From a virus: a stretch of DNA of 29,880 bases. The translations under genes were made by a program, and so were the position numbers. Every line of letters starts with the position of its first letter. The first letter of the stretch is position 1. This document shows, piece after piece, positions 4,401-27,267 of the stretch. The stretch is from the IMG/VR virus record IMGVR_UViG_3300040808_000595, positions 1 to 29,880 of that record; one strand, written 5' to 3'. The notes beneath the pieces were generated by a model. That model saw only the letters and a list, made by a program, of their open reading frames with translations, did no database searches and was not told the origin of the DNA.

Positions 4401-4721
4401 TTACTTCTTCCCAAGTGCCTGCGCCCCAAAGAATGCGGCTACAATACCTGCGACTGCTACAAAATATGTAGCTGCCATGTCGCCTAAGATTTGACTTGCT
4501 GAGTCTAGGCCTATGAGGACTGCGAGAACAACAGCAAAAGGATAAAGCAACATACCACCTAGTGCGAACCACGCCATTTTACGTTGGGCATCTCGCATCG
4601 CATCTTCATCTTCTAGGCGCTTACGTTTAAACTCCATATACATTTCATGCTCTGCTCTACTGACTTTTCCGTCACCATTGCTATCTGCTTCATGGAAAGC
4701 GGTTTTATTTTCTTCAGACAT
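4401..4721 (-). CDS. EF-hand protein with two membrane helices
   Basis: A 106-aa protein. Residues 13-24 (DSNGDGKVSRAE) form a canonical EF-hand Ca2+ loop with D13, N15, D17, S21 and E24 in the ligand positions. A charged helical linker follows (EFKRKRLEDEDAMRDAQRK). Two hydrophobic segments, about 49-71 and 82-102, read as transmembrane helices, and the C-terminus is Lys-rich. There is no cleavable signal peptide. It therefore looks like a cytosolic Ca2+-sensing domain on a small inner-membrane hairpin. The size and two-helix layout overlap with holins and antiholins, but I see no family signature that proves this. A T4-type late promoter motif lies 50 bases upstream. The stop is directly followed by the TTG start of the 2OG oxygenase. 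Confidence 0.8.
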   Translation of the reverse strand: MSEENKTAFHEADSNGDGKVSRAEHEMYMEFKRKRLEDEDAMRDAQRKMAWFALGGMLLYPFAVVLAVLIGLDSASQILGDMAATYFVAVAGIVAAFFGAQALGKK

Positions 4722-4729
4722 TATGCCTC

Positions 4730-5476
4730 CTATTTTGCATACTTGCTAATATGTGATATTAACTCCTCTTTATTTATATCACCTACAATGTCTGCAAAAG
4801 GAATATATCCGATAGCTAACCTAGGGTCGTGAAATTGGTAAGGCATTTTGTCTGCCATTCGATGCCATGCTGGCTTAGCTACTCTCTGTAGCCAATCCTT
4901 TTCCATATCTTTTGTAATAGGATCTCCCAAGTGCATAAAGAATGTAGCCCTTGCCCATATTTGTGGTTGAATCTGAGAACGTTTTATATTCCAGTCTTTT
5001 GTATTTACAATCTCTGCAAAGTGTTTACCTACATGAGCATAGGCAAGATATAGTGTTCCTAACTTTCTTTGAACTGTAAACTTTGGAAATGCTTCGGTTG
5101 GAATTCTATATGTTTTTTCTCCGTCGGTGTATCCCCATCTAGGAGGGGCACCAGTCTCTAATAATTCTATCTGATGAATGAGGTTGTTGATGTCGTCCCA
5201 AATTAATTTATCTTCACGATTGGCAGTGTTTACTTGTATAGCAAATTGATTGTGCAAGCCATTGAAATCAAAGTCTTCTCGATTGCCAAAGTTTCTTTGT
5301 AAATTAAAATGTGCTGCCTTATCCCACAAATCGTTTAGAAGTTTTTCTCTATCTTGTTCTAACCAAAAATATTCCCTAGAATATCTAACTTCTTGTTCTA
5401 AGAACCGTGCGTGATTTTGTGAGAATTTGTCTGCGTGTACAGCAAAGTCTAAATCGTTAAAACTTAATATCATCAT
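4730..5476 (-). CDS. Hypothetical 248-aa protein after the gp41 helicase
   Basis: A soluble, mostly helical protein rich in aromatic and charged residues (for example REYFWLEQDREKLLNDLWDKA and KDWLQRVAKPAWHRM). I recognise no domain, and it does not resemble T4 gp61 primase: no zinc finger or TOPRIM motif is visible. I chose the ATG pair at 5476/5473 because AAAGGGTGG lies just upstream. A longer reading beginning at 5530 would start deep inside the helicase gene without that site. It overlaps the helicase end by about 20 bases, so translation is probably coupled. Position next to gp41 suggests a replication-related or accessory role, which remains inference. Confidence 0.7.
   Translation of the reverse strand: MMILSFNDLDFAVHADKFSQNHARFLEQEVRYSREYFWLEQDREKLLNDLWDKAAHFNLQRNFGNREDFDFNGLHNQFAIQVNTANREDKLIWDDINNLIHQIELLETGAPPRWGYTDGEKTYRIPTEAFPKFTVQRKLGTLYLAYAHVGKHFAEIVNTKDWNIKRSQIQPQIWARATFFMHLGDPITKDMEKDWLQRVAKPAWHRMADKMPYQFHDPRLAIGYIPFADIVGDINKEELISHISKYAK
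4771..4778 (-). promoter_or_regulatory. Putative T4-type late promoter
   Basis: TATAAATA on the minus strand, 50 bases upstream of the EF-hand membrane protein start. It is identical to the T4 late -10 element recognised by gp55. It lies within the 3' end of the previous gene, so chance occurrence is possible. Confidence 0.45.
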
Positions 5477-7453: not shown

Positions 7454-8321
7454 ATATAATCTCCTTAATTTTTATTTCGTTGGGTCTCATCTGACGATGA
7501 GGAACATCAACTCCTGTATTAAATCCTAAGCAGACTCGGCATGCTTGGATATTTGTTTCCGACTCCATCATATTTTTAATCAATTCACCTGTGTTTTCTT
7601 GGTGAAGTGGAATTGCATCTTTGCTAAAATCAAAGGGAGGTTCTATTCCGCTCTGTTCATATAACTTTGCCTTAACATAAGTCATTGGACATCTGTAAAA
7701 GTGTCCGCCGTATATTGCAACTGCGCTATCCTTCAACCAACATTTTTTCCAAATGTCTAAGGCTTCTTCTTCTGTATTTAATGTGTCTTTATGGTGCATC
7801 ACTTTGAAATGCCCATTTACAATGTTAACCTCAGCACCCTTTGCTACAATATCTCTTTGGTATCCTACTAGGGTTTTAACAACTTCCATGTCTGTTAAAA
7901 CTCTAAGATGTAGTTTAGGATATATTTTTTGATACCCTTCAATCTTTTTAATTATTTTATCATAGTTTATATTTGTATCTCGGTATATGCTGAGATTAAT
8001 TGCATCTAAATTTTTCCAAAATTCTTCAGGCTGAGACAACAGGTTTATACCATTAGTAATGATACAGTTCATTTTAGCCAGGCCAATCTCTTTAGGGTAT
8101 TTTAAAAACTCGACAATCTCTGGGTGTAGTGTACACTCGCCACCGGTGAACCTGGCTATGTCTAGTTCATAATACTTATTTAGAGCATCGCAATCCTTTT
8201 TAAATTGCTCTAAAGATTCAAACTCTGGTTTTAGATATGGACTTGCCATAGAACAATTAAGGCACTTCAGGTTGCAATGCAACACTGGGTACATTTCAAT
8301 ATAGTTCTTTTTATACTTCAC
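7440..8321 (-). CDS. Radical SAM enzyme with SPASM-like C-terminal cysteines
   Basis: A 293-aa protein. C16-x3-C20-x2-C23 (CNLKCLNC) is the [4Fe-4S] site that cleaves S-adenosylmethionine, and FTGGECTLHP (59-68) is the GGE SAM-binding motif. C194, C211, C261 and C264 form a set (KKCW, YRCPM, CRVC) that could hold an auxiliary cluster as in SPASM/twitch domains. Such enzymes modify peptides, sugars or cofactors by radical chemistry. The start is GTG at 8321, overlapping the TAG of the metalloprotease gene as TAGTG, with GGAG 5 bases upstream. An internal ATG at residue 10 would still keep all motifs. The substrate cannot be read from sequence, but the protease and SDR neighbours are suggestive. 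Confidence 0.9.
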   Translation of the reverse strand: MKYKKNYIEMYPVLHCNLKCLNCSMASPYLKPEFESLEQFKKDCDALNKYYELDIARFTGGECTLHPEIVEFLKYPKEIGLAKMNCIITNGINLLSQPEEFWKNLDAINLSIYRDTNINYDKIIKKIEGYQKIYPKLHLRVLTDMEVVKTLVGYQRDIVAKGAEVNIVNGHFKVMHHKDTLNTEEEALDIWKKCWLKDSAVAIYGGHFYRCPMTYVKAKLYEQSGIEPPFDFSKDAIPLHQENTGELIKNMMESETNIQACRVCLGFNTGVDVPHRQMRPNEIKIKEIIYDHG

Positions 8322-9199
8322 TAACGCTCCATAACAGAATTCAGTAATCTATCAAACTGCTTTGATGGGTCGCCACCATATGAAGTTTCATTATTAAAAA
8401 CAGGATAATTGTATGGACCATATTTTTCATATGTTAATGAGACACTTGGCGCCGCGGCATTAATTGCCATTGAGGCCCTATGTTCTGAGTCACCATATTC
8501 CACACCGTCTACTGTAAGCCAAAAATCGGAGTAATAGTTTACTCTATTTTTAGCGTAGGACATAATTGTTCCTGTATTATTTGATGCCTCGTAACCTGCC
8601 CCGACTTTAAAAGTGGGCTCTTCGTCTATAGTATGAGCCAATCCTAATTGATGTCCAATCTCATGTGCAAAGATATATTCAGTAGAAGTTTCTTGTTCAG
8701 GATCTATGGTTGCAATGTCATTCTTGCTATAACAAGCAGTCATGCCCGCCGTCATACCTTCTCCTATCCATCGCCAACCTGCACCGCATACTTCCCAGTC
8801 TTGTTTATTATCCAACATAACATGAACCATGTCTGCTTCGTATTTGTCTACAAGCCAAGCCTTTTCATAAAAGGGTGAGTATTGATACCAGTCTTTTAAA
8901 TCATAAGCAAGTGTGATGTTACCCAAGTTGTCATATGTATTTTCAATATCAACAGGCTCTACGAATGCGGCTTCCATGTGAATTTGGACTCCGTTAATTT
9001 TGAAGATTTTATTCAACTGCCTAATATAACCAAACACTCTACGCCTGTCCATACGTTCATCTACAAACACACCTAATCGTATTGTGTTGACTCCTGGGCG
9101 ATACACCATATCAATGTTAGCGAGATTTGATTCTACACCATGACACGTTTCATAGTTTACTACATTACATTCAATGTAGTCTGCTTCTACATAGTCCAT
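8321..9199 (-). CDS. Metzincin-type zinc metalloprotease
   Basis: A 292-aa protein. The zinc site is HEIGHQLGLAH (H179, E180, H183, H189), the full HExxHxxGxxH metzincin signature. The downstream Met-turn is GTIMSYA, with M213 at the expected distance. VCGAGWRW (137-144) resembles the segment ahead of the active site in reprolysin-like enzymes. There is no signal peptide or membrane segment, so it acts in the cytoplasm or is packaged in the virion. Its cysteines (C11, C19, C138, C156) might include a propeptide-type Cys switch, but this is not provable here. It is not the T4 prohead protease type. It is coupled to the radical SAM gene by a one-base overlap. A role in processing a protein modified by its neighbour is an inference. 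Confidence 0.88.
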   Translation of the reverse strand: MDYVEADYIECNVVNYETCHGVESNLANIDMVYRPGVNTIRLGVFVDERMDRRRVFGYIRQLNKIFKINGVQIHMEAAFVEPVDIENTYDNLGNITLAYDLKDWYQYSPFYEKAWLVDKYEADMVHVMLDNKQDWEVCGAGWRWIGEGMTAGMTACYSKNDIATIDPEQETSTEYIFAHEIGHQLGLAHTIDEEPTFKVGAGYEASNNTGTIMSYAKNRVNYYSDFWLTVDGVEYGDSEHRASMAINAAAPSVSLTYEKYGPYNYPVFNNETSYGGDPSKQFDRLLNSVMER

Positions 9200-24896: not shown

Positions 24897-26393
24897 TCAG
24901 TAGTTTAGGGCTAAAGTCAACAAATATTCACGTCCGCCGGCAGTATATTGGGGTAAAATCTCGAATTCTCTATCAAAAACGTCCCTAATTTGGAACATTA
25001 CATTGTAGATTCCAAAGTCTTTTCCTATATGTAACTGTGCTGATTTTACATCCTCGAGCGGTGTTTTGTCAACGTCTCGTCGTCCGTTTTGGTATGCTAG
25101 TTTGAACCCGTAGGTATAACCCTTGTAGTCGTCCTCAAACATGATTGCTGTACGAAGTTTAGGGATCCTTGGAAGATCTGAATGTGTGACTGCTATAACT
25201 GTCTTGAATTGTTTGTAGTAGGCTAGTACCTTAATACCCTTGGTACTGTAGGAGCCTGTGTTCACATACTGGTTATTGACATAGTCGTAATCTATACCCT
25301 CGTCAAATTCGTAGGCGAAAGCTGAAAAAATTTTATATCGTACGTCGACACCTTGCCCCTCCTCTGCGTTGAGAAACCGATTTGGTGATACCCAACCGTC
25401 GCCGTTCGTTTCATATAGAGTCGGTCGCCTATAACTATTCCCTACACTAATTGAAAAGTCTGGGGTTCTGACACCTACTTTATATACGAATACATCATCG
25501 TTCTCATATCTTAGTCCTGCATTAAACAAATCATAGGTAAGAAAAGAGTAGACTGATCCAACTGTTAACTTTTCGGCACCATTATCCTCTCTTTCTACGT
25601 TTGATCCAAGTAGTACATAATCGTTGACATACTTACGAGCATCTAAATAGTATCTTTGATTTTTAGAAGAGTAGCTCTCTTCACCGTTTCTCAAAAATGT
25701 TTGTTCGTTTTCTACGAACCCAAGTGTTGCATTTTCGCCTTGTATTGATAACTCGTGCTTCCTACCCTTTTGTTCACAATCGTCAGACTCCCAGCATGAA
25801 TCATAATCGTATTGGTAATCTGTTAAAGCATAATTTAATACACCCGTTTGAAGTCTTAAAACATTGTTATGGTAGTCGTCTTCTTCCTCATTGGTGTTCA
25901 TTACGCTACCATTCGATGCTTGCTTAGATGCTATAGAAAAGTATTTGTCGCCAACTGAAAAATATTTTGAATCACTGCCTGCTTGAGCTATGAAGTGTTT
26001 TCTAAGTTTGTCTGTTATAAAAACAGTGCCTGCTAAACTACCCGAGCCTGTGAGTACACTATTGGGCCCATGAGCAATCATGATCTCTTGGTATTGTTGA
26101 GGTAGATCGTTTGCCCAGTCATACCAACCAGTAGAAGGATCGTTAACGGGTACGCCGTTCCTAAAGACTCTGGTATGTGTAGAACTCTGTCCGCGATCTC
26201 TAAAAGAAGAAAATCCACCAGTACCACCTGGGGTAAAAACCATTGATGGTAAGATGGATTCAATTGTTGAAGTGTTAAGTGCAGGGTCTACTTCTACTTT
26301 GTTAATGGGTTGCCCTACAACAATAACTTCTTCTATCGTCTGTCCGTGTGCAATTGTGCTCATAAGAGCGAAACATAATATAAGGTGTTTCAT
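24897..26393 (-). CDS. TonB-dependent outer-membrane receptor
   Basis: A complete 498-aa protein. Residues 1-17 (MKHLILCFALMSTIAHG) form a Sec signal peptide. IEEVIVVGQ is a TonB box. Residues about 45-130 form the plug domain (FSSFRDRGQSSTHTRVFRNG, then HGPNSVLTGSGSLAGTVFI). SYRRPTLYETNGDGWVSPNR and LNAEEGQGVDVRYK are the barrel landmarks of BtuB-like receptors. The C-terminus IRDVFDREFEILPQYTAGGR ends in YLLTLALNY, a beta-signal for BAM insertion. It is shorter than usual (about 600-700 aa) but unbroken. Such receptors import siderophores, cobalamin or metals using TonB. It starts 3 bases after the His-rich gene stop and lacks a visible ribosome-binding site, so it may rely on coupling. A TonB receptor in a T4-like phage genome is unexpected; phage core genes lie on both sides. 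Confidence 0.93.
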   Translation of the reverse strand: MKHLILCFALMSTIAHGQTIEEVIVVGQPINKVEVDPALNTSTIESILPSMVFTPGGTGGFSSFRDRGQSSTHTRVFRNGVPVNDPSTGWYDWANDLPQQYQEIMIAHGPNSVLTGSGSLAGTVFITDKLRKHFIAQAGSDSKYFSVGDKYFSIASKQASNGSVMNTNEEEDDYHNNVLRLQTGVLNYALTDYQYDYDSCWESDDCEQKGRKHELSIQGENATLGFVENEQTFLRNGEESYSSKNQRYYLDARKYVNDYVLLGSNVEREDNGAEKLTVGSVYSFLTYDLFNAGLRYENDDVFVYKVGVRTPDFSISVGNSYRRPTLYETNGDGWVSPNRFLNAEEGQGVDVRYKIFSAFAYEFDEGIDYDYVNNQYVNTGSYSTKGIKVLAYYKQFKTVIAVTHSDLPRIPKLRTAIMFEDDYKGYTYGFKLAYQNGRRDVDKTPLEDVKSAQLHIGKDFGIYNVMFQIRDVFDREFEILPQYTAGGREYLLTLALNY

Positions 26394-26767: not shown

Positions 26768-27229
26768 CTATGAGCTCAGTCCTAAAGTGTACTGAGTTTT
26801 GCCATCAACTCGTGATGCTGTTAATGATTTGCCTCTGTTTCCTTCTGTGTTATACGACACATGAACCCAACCTGAGTCTGGGATACCTGACGTATAGAAC
26901 TCTAAGATTACTTGATCAAAGTCTGTATTTTCCTCAATCCATTTTGCTAAATGATAATTGGGTACACCGGCTACTTCAATATCTGCTGCTTGTCCTTTGC
27001 AATGCTGGGACCTAGAGCTACCGCCTACTGCTTTATTAAGTTCGTCGCCTCGATAACCACTGTTAATGTTAACAGGGCCAAAGTGGTCTCTAACTTTCTG
27101 CAGAACATTCTCACATAATGCGATTGCATTGTCCAAATGTTCTTTGGGCATAGAATTGTCTAAGCCTCGTCTTGTAGCAGTTTGCGACTTTTCAAATTCA
27201 GCTAGAGAAAAGTTTTTAGATAGTTTCAT
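26768..27229 (-). CDS. M15-type peptidoglycan peptidase (putative endolysin)
   Basis: A 153-aa protein. SQHCKGQAADIEV contains the S-x-H-x-x-G-x-A-x-D zinc motif (H76, D83), with R60 in NSGYRGDELN and the third ligand H123 in GWVHVSYN. This is the peptidase M15 (D-Ala-D-Ala carboxypeptidase/L-Ala-D-Glu peptidase-like) fold. It cleaves peptide bonds in cell-wall stems and is a common phage lysis or virion enzyme. There is no signal peptide, so access to the wall would need a holin. Both an early-type promoter (27273-27301) and a late motif (27260-27267) precede it, a dual pattern also known for T4 lysozyme gene e. The receptor and His-rich genes follow in the same unit. Confidence 0.9.
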   Translation of the reverse strand: MKLSKNFSLAEFEKSQTATRRGLDNSMPKEHLDNAIALCENVLQKVRDHFGPVNINSGYRGDELNKAVGGSSRSQHCKGQAADIEVAGVPNYHLAKWIEENTDFDQVILEFYTSGIPDSGWVHVSYNTEGNRGKSLTASRVDGKTQYTLGLSS

Positions 27230-27259: not shown

Positions 27260-27267
27260 TATTTATA
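27260..27267 (-). promoter_or_regulatory. Putative T4-type late promoter for the lysis/receptor unit
   Basis: TATAAATA on the minus strand, 31 bases before the M15 peptidase start and directly downstream of the sigma-70-type promoter. Confidence 0.55.

Follow-up and report, generated by a model that had tools for sequence, protein, structure and literature searches.

An invariant DxDxDG loop-helix fused to a membrane hairpin in a putative lysis protein of marine phages

Loop-helix sites of the dockerin and Excalibur type reside mostly in extracellular domains, and a literature search found no paper linking a lysis membrane protein to an EF-hand. Two-TMD lysis proteins that depend on a second membrane protein have a precedent in LysF1a of mycobacteriophage Girr, which is oriented N-in/C-in (PMC13056207). 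For the T4-like phage Melnitz, the published account names no conventional holin, proposes CsgG as a pinholin and treats a glycoside hydrolase as the sole lysin (PMC9004378). The protein family described here, which Melnitz also encodes, combines an N-terminal DxDxDG loop with a predicted inner-membrane hairpin.

The window, that is, the whole 29,880-nucleotide stretch that was analysed, is a portion of a T4-like phage genome, to judge from our reading of its translations and from family matches. The same sources place the minus-strand ORF at 4401-4721 among replication, repair and late genes. This ORF is preceded by a good Shine-Dalgarno sequence, AGGAGG, read directly at 4726-4731 (minus strand). 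Its translation, MSEENKTAFHEADSNGDGKVSRAEHEMYMEFKRKRLEDEDAMRDAQRKMAWFALGGMLLYPFAVVLAVLIGLDSASQILGDMAATYFVAVAGIVAAFFGAQALGKK, is a 106-aa protein in which a 12-residue calcium loop is followed by a charged helix and two membrane helices. The initial annotation had described it in much these terms, and the ORF itself, Pfam, hydropathy and AlphaFold2 bear this out. Megablast of the region against phage records returned no match; a structure search with the protein gave nothing significant in the PDB and matched a single viral predicted model of 84 aa (54% identity), which has no name. The membrane hairpin is encoded at 393 loci among the matches listed, where hundreds of marine phages carry the two-helix protein with an intact loop. 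Isolates with the gene are Melnitz and HTVC008M (T4-like), CRP-207 and CRP-345 (HMO-2011 type) and CRP-810; in all five it is labelled only as hypothetical.

The protein is probably a late-expressed inner-membrane lysis protein of the holin or holin-partner kind. This appears to be the best explanation because, in relatives, the gene is linked to holin and endolysin genes, a genomic context that is new. The matches listed comprise 294 non-identical loci, at which a simple ORF procedure was used to call the genes nearby. A holin is the next gene in 106 of them and an endolysin is one of the next three in 111, compared with means of 0.2 and 9.1 when genes are drawn at random from these loci; any lysis gene is nearby in 138. 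In about a third, the calcium-loop gene stands directly upstream of holin and endolysin, a proportion that, like the others given here, describes the sample and not nature, since clade sampling follows the queries and the matches listed. The spacing to the next holin is typically -4, -1 or 0-6 bases, stop/start overlaps of 4 or 1 bases ranking among the commonest. These downstream holins belong to PF11351 (E 3e-25) or to families named here hol18 and hol50; profile comparison relates hol18 to PF11351 with a probability of 93%, and hol50 more weakly. The linked endolysins are of five types (GH19, M15_4, M15_3, GH108 and GH24), which argues that the linked unit is not one hitch-hiking cassette and that the calcium-loop gene is retained while the enzyme swaps.

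In CRP-810, the calcium-loop gene overlaps an annotated holin gene, after which comes a GH108 endolysin. In CRP-345 a spanin-like gene and then an endolysin come after it, and nothing else in this lysis cassette encodes a holin-like protein with two TM segments. A tree of 49 representatives has one clade made up almost entirely of lysis-cassette members (18 of 19) and another of T4-like and mixed contexts, lysis-linked members included. Such members fall in both halves of the tree, and its well-supported branches force at least three changes of label. One apparent case was set aside. The CRP-207 gene upstream of the calcium-loop gene, gp73 (L084:3292-3873), is annotated as a 'putative lysozyme'; because PHROGs gives only a weak match, to a tape-measure coiled coil, it was not counted as lysis evidence, and the annotation is probably wrong.

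Two other protein families recur upstream of the calcium-loop gene. A tail-anchored one with a single C-terminal membrane helix, starting M-D/I-P-V-x-A/I, is present at 91 of the 294 listed loci. It is phrog_32327-like and often encoded two genes upstream (e.g. L087:607-1104 and, in CRP-345, L222:27176-27652). The other, in which an N-terminal membrane helix is combined with a long coiled coil, occurs at 49 loci among the matches listed (e.g. L147:6136-6648), mostly directly upstream and in HMO-2011-type contexts; it resembles an inner-membrane spanin, yet matches none.

At 66 of the 294 listed loci the order is, wholly or partly, gp26, gp51, calcium-loop gene, tape measure, in agreement with HTVC008M, where baseplate hub, gp51 and tape measure are annotated. 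No lysis gene is near at 65 of these 66 loci, which weighs against the lysis reading. Such an order would suit a membrane-anchored tail or baseplate-hub assembly factor of T4-like phages, working at the inner membrane beside gp51 and the tape measure, with the loop in a structural role. This is quite unlikely, as the protein is also conserved in small-genome Roseobacter phages without the tail order, where it lies beside holins and endolysins, and as some T4-like clades, including that of the window, have left the tail operon and gained a late-promoter motif of their own. In L066, a T4-like locus with the tail context, an M15_3 endolysin gene is inserted between gp51 and the calcium-loop gene.

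In the window clade, the calcium-loop gene is found amid replication genes and carries its own T4-like late motif. A motif scan locates TATAAATA at 4771-4778 (minus strand), 57 bases upstream of the start, so that the late-type motif reported initially is real; in the clade of L020, 7 of the 11 members carry the exact motif at -27 to -29. The window's M15_3 peptidase endolysin (26768-27229, minus strand; PF08291, E 2.4e-22; phrog_894 endolysin, 1.5e-47) has the T4-like late motif in common with the calcium-loop gene, in this case 38 bases upstream (27260-27267, minus strand). This enzyme is a homologue of the L066 endolysin that adjoins the calcium-loop gene; in the window the two genes are 22 kb apart, and the lysis-cassette adjacency is absent.

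The late motif also bears on the idea of a superinfection-exclusion or host-takeover protein that resides in the inner membrane and blocks incoming DNA, the loop contributing stability. A small, two-TM protein with a predicted inner-membrane location would fit, and T4 Imm is similar in size and topology. We regard this as very unlikely given a motif that denotes late and not early expression, and given that relatives are strongly coupled to genes for holins and endolysins. The superinfection factor put forward by the initial annotation found no specific support and has these same two observations against it.

The window contains eight exact copies of TATAAATA (4771-29067), all on the coding strand; chance would give 3.0 over the two strands. 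Seven of them precede a gene start by 20-67 bases, and the genes behind the motifs include, among others, those for the calcium-loop protein, Hsp20, the endolysin and a glutaredoxin-like protein. One gene run holds the M15 endolysin, a small secreted His/Gly protein and, at 24897-26393 (minus strand), a protein that appears to have a signal peptide and contains a plug domain of TonB-dependent receptors (PF07715, E 7e-10); this last is a possible receptor decoy or receptor replacement. A reprolysin-like zinc metallopeptidase with the motif HEIGHQLGLAH, unusual for a T4-like replication cluster, is encoded at 8321-9199 (minus strand).

The hairpin of the calcium-loop protein was delineated with a simple hydropathy window and an AlphaFold2 model built from 48 sequences (mean pLDDT 80.7). 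In the model, residues 1-21 are coil; a continuous helix, 22-70, comprises the loop exit helix and the first transmembrane segment, and a short helix, 73-81, leads to the second at 83-105. Hydropathy by itself puts the two segments at about residues 52-70 and 82-100. Hydropathy and model together place transmembrane helix 1 at about residues 50-70 (4512-4574, minus strand), continuous with the loop exit helix. Helix 2, supported by conservation as well, spans about residues 82-102 (4416-4478, minus strand); it is rich in small residues and has a conserved A-A-F/Y-F/Y-G end, after which comes a basic C-terminal tail. Mean charge counts across 54 non-redundant members are 3.0 K/R in the 10 residues preceding helix 1, 0.5 K/R and 1.6 D/E in the inter-helix loop, and 2.4 K/R and 0.4 D/E in the C-terminal tail. 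Under the positive-inside rule this charge distribution predicts an N-in/C-in hairpin with the calcium loop on the cytoplasmic side. The topology prediction that had been proposed at the outset gives, from hydropathy, model and charges together, two TMDs with both ends in.

The window yielded no separate holin: among all its ORFs, hydropathy predicts no second one with two membrane segments, and the PF11351 (GTA_holin_3TM) HMM matches neither the 106-aa protein nor any other part of it. Among 12 records searched, PF11351 was found only in CRP-810 and T4 holin t (PF11031) in none. The calcium-loop protein matches no holin family above cut-off, a point against its being a holin. Phage_holin_3_6 (PF07332) scores 15.4 bits on the window protein against a cut-off of 28.4, and gives weak matches in 19 of 53 members at E <= 0.1 (best E 9e-5). 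Homology of the hairpin to the neighbouring holins was entertained and dropped: P was 6e-5 with seven sequences pooled in one alignment, but 0.008, 0.04 and 0.26 with the families profiled separately, and profile comparison of the hairpin with 45 membrane families reached a best P of 0.0047. In view of the separate-profile values and the latter figure, common descent is not claimed.

The HTVC008M stretches examined contain no annotated holin. Its annotated proteins of up to 220 aa with two segments are the calcium-loop protein, gp021, and gp167 (67 aa), in a scan that starts after the first 4 kb; their CRP-345 counterparts are the calcium-loop protein, gp02 (56 aa) and the spanin-like protein. 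As further small two-TM proteins, gp167 and gp02 speak against the holin reading; in CRP-345, sole holin is a candidate role of the calcium-loop protein. HTVC008M gp145 and gp146 (L398:40049-40582), an adjacent single-TM coiled-coil protein and small lipoprotein, look like an unannotated i-spanin/o-spanin pair. Melnitz 77 (L223:42214-42741), a cell wall hydrolase with a match to endolysin phrog_938 (2e-22), comes in addition to the glycoside hydrolase of the published account.

The proposal that the protein is a holin or antiholin is supported in part: it gains strong indirect support from the holin and endolysin linkage and from the shared late motifs, but a sole-holin role is the less likely one where a GTA-type holin follows. 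The initial annotation had set a separate, clear holin gene against its proposal. One large clade does have such a gene, of the GTA type and located downstream, which makes a holin partner or antiholin more likely there than a sole holin. In T4-like phages, the window included, in which no other holin is recognised, the calcium-loop protein may be the holin itself.

The predicted calcium-binding loop, DSNGDGKVSRAE, occupies residues 13-24 (4650-4685, minus strand). Besides the invariant ligands described below, it is marked by Pfam matches to EF-hand_5 and EF-hand_1, both with E of about 5e-4 and both under the curated cut-off (20 versus 25.9 bits and 19.7 versus 25.4 bits). Relatives were gathered first with the full protein from three lineages and then with the hairpin alone from three more, so that loop-less relatives would have been findable. 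All 386 listed relatives that are complete over the loop, those retrieved with the hairpin alone included, have the 12-residue EF-type loop with ligands at positions 1, 3, 5 and 12 and glycine at 6; D1, [DN]3, [DN]5, G6, [ILV]8 and E12 are invariant. The hairpin-only queries thus brought to light no loss of ligand residues, the observation that the initial annotation had deemed adverse. Of the 393 listed loci, seven are without the pattern, six because they begin at a contig edge and one because a loop residue is ambiguous. Outside the loop, much of the remainder of the N-terminal 40 residues is highly variable across relatives. Among neighbouring non-family genes, which total 902,786 aa, the strict pattern occurs four times, or about 5e-4 expected per 106 aa. 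The loop is not due to chance, and the invariance of its ligands indicates constraint.

As to the term EF-hand, all ligand positions are there, yet the canonical fold is not. The model has no entering helix before the loop, and in the CRP-810 clade, where the loop begins 4-5 residues past the start codon, none is possible; each protein has one loop and hence no pairing within a chain. The arrangement is more accurately named a DxDxDG loop-helix fused to a membrane hairpin than a canonical helix-loop-helix EF-hand. Without an entering helix, a single loop may have low affinity for calcium. Pairing of loops between neighbouring subunits is conceivable, given that loop residue 8 is always hydrophobic.

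The invariance could also reflect a lysis protein whose loop is a structural metal site, with calcium or magnesium always bound, that senses nothing. Cytoplasmic magnesium is millimolar, as such a site would have it. However, E12 is invariant in all 386 listed relatives, and EF loops selective for calcium typically have a bidentate glutamate at that position, aspartate favouring magnesium. We therefore hold a purely structural site to be unlikely.

Calcium gating of lysis is a more tentative proposal than the lysis role itself, and it draws on three things: a loop that does not vary, its predicted position in the cytoplasm and the seawater calcium gradient. From what was computed, namely the loop with its invariant ligands, the hairpin, the linkage of relatives to lysis cassettes and the late-type promoter motif, the following scheme can be envisaged. 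With the two membrane helices forming an N-in/C-in hairpin, the DxDxDG loop and its rigid helix would project into the cytoplasm, and the protein would build up metal-free in the inner membrane, cytoplasmic free calcium being low. A late membrane leak, or other entry of calcium from seawater (about 10 mM), would bring the ion to the loops. Binding by loops of adjacent subunits would shift their packing and so set or sharpen the moment of hole formation; where a GTA-type holin is encoded directly downstream, the protein would act as its regulator or partner. That calcium entry may help to time lysis is suggested by a loop that is always intact and a gene that often directly precedes lysis genes. 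It is possible, if doubtful, that this is the first phage holin or antiholin triggered by calcium binding to an EF-type loop.

If such a switch operates, the integrity of the host membrane and external calcium would be coupled to the moment of lysis, and the device would be widespread among marine phages whose genome types are unrelated. The timing of viral lysis in the ocean would then be tied to a measurable ion, and holins would have a new mode of sensing. Lysis timing is a question in the phages of SAR11, OM43 and Roseobacter, and the family provides a concrete, conserved lysis candidate in the same genomes.

Comparison with known systems brings out both shared and private features. Like class II holins (S21-type) and LysF1a, the protein is small, with two membrane helices, a predicted N-in/C-in orientation and charged ends, and in relatives its gene adjoins those of an endolysin and a second lysis-cassette membrane protein. 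Unlike them, it has an invariant N-terminal loop-helix and scores above cut-off with no curated holin model. With its GTA_holin_3TM (PF11351) and phrog_2524 neighbours it shares cassette, orientation, often overlapping start and stop codons, and a final membrane helix rich in small residues; these neighbours have an amphipathic N-terminus in place of a calcium loop, and no reliable profile homology to the family. The loop itself, D-x-[DN]-x-[DN]-G-x-[ILV]-x-x-x-E followed by a helix, is like the EF-hand-like DxDxDG sites of dockerin and Excalibur, but is fused to a phage inner-membrane hairpin and is predicted to be cytoplasmic. CsgG, with a proposed pinholin role, occurs in the same phages, Melnitz and HTVC008M, as the calcium-loop protein (PMC9004378). 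In curli systems, CsgG is an outer-membrane secretion pore, whereas the size and topology of the calcium-loop protein and the gene position of its relatives fit a lysis membrane protein.
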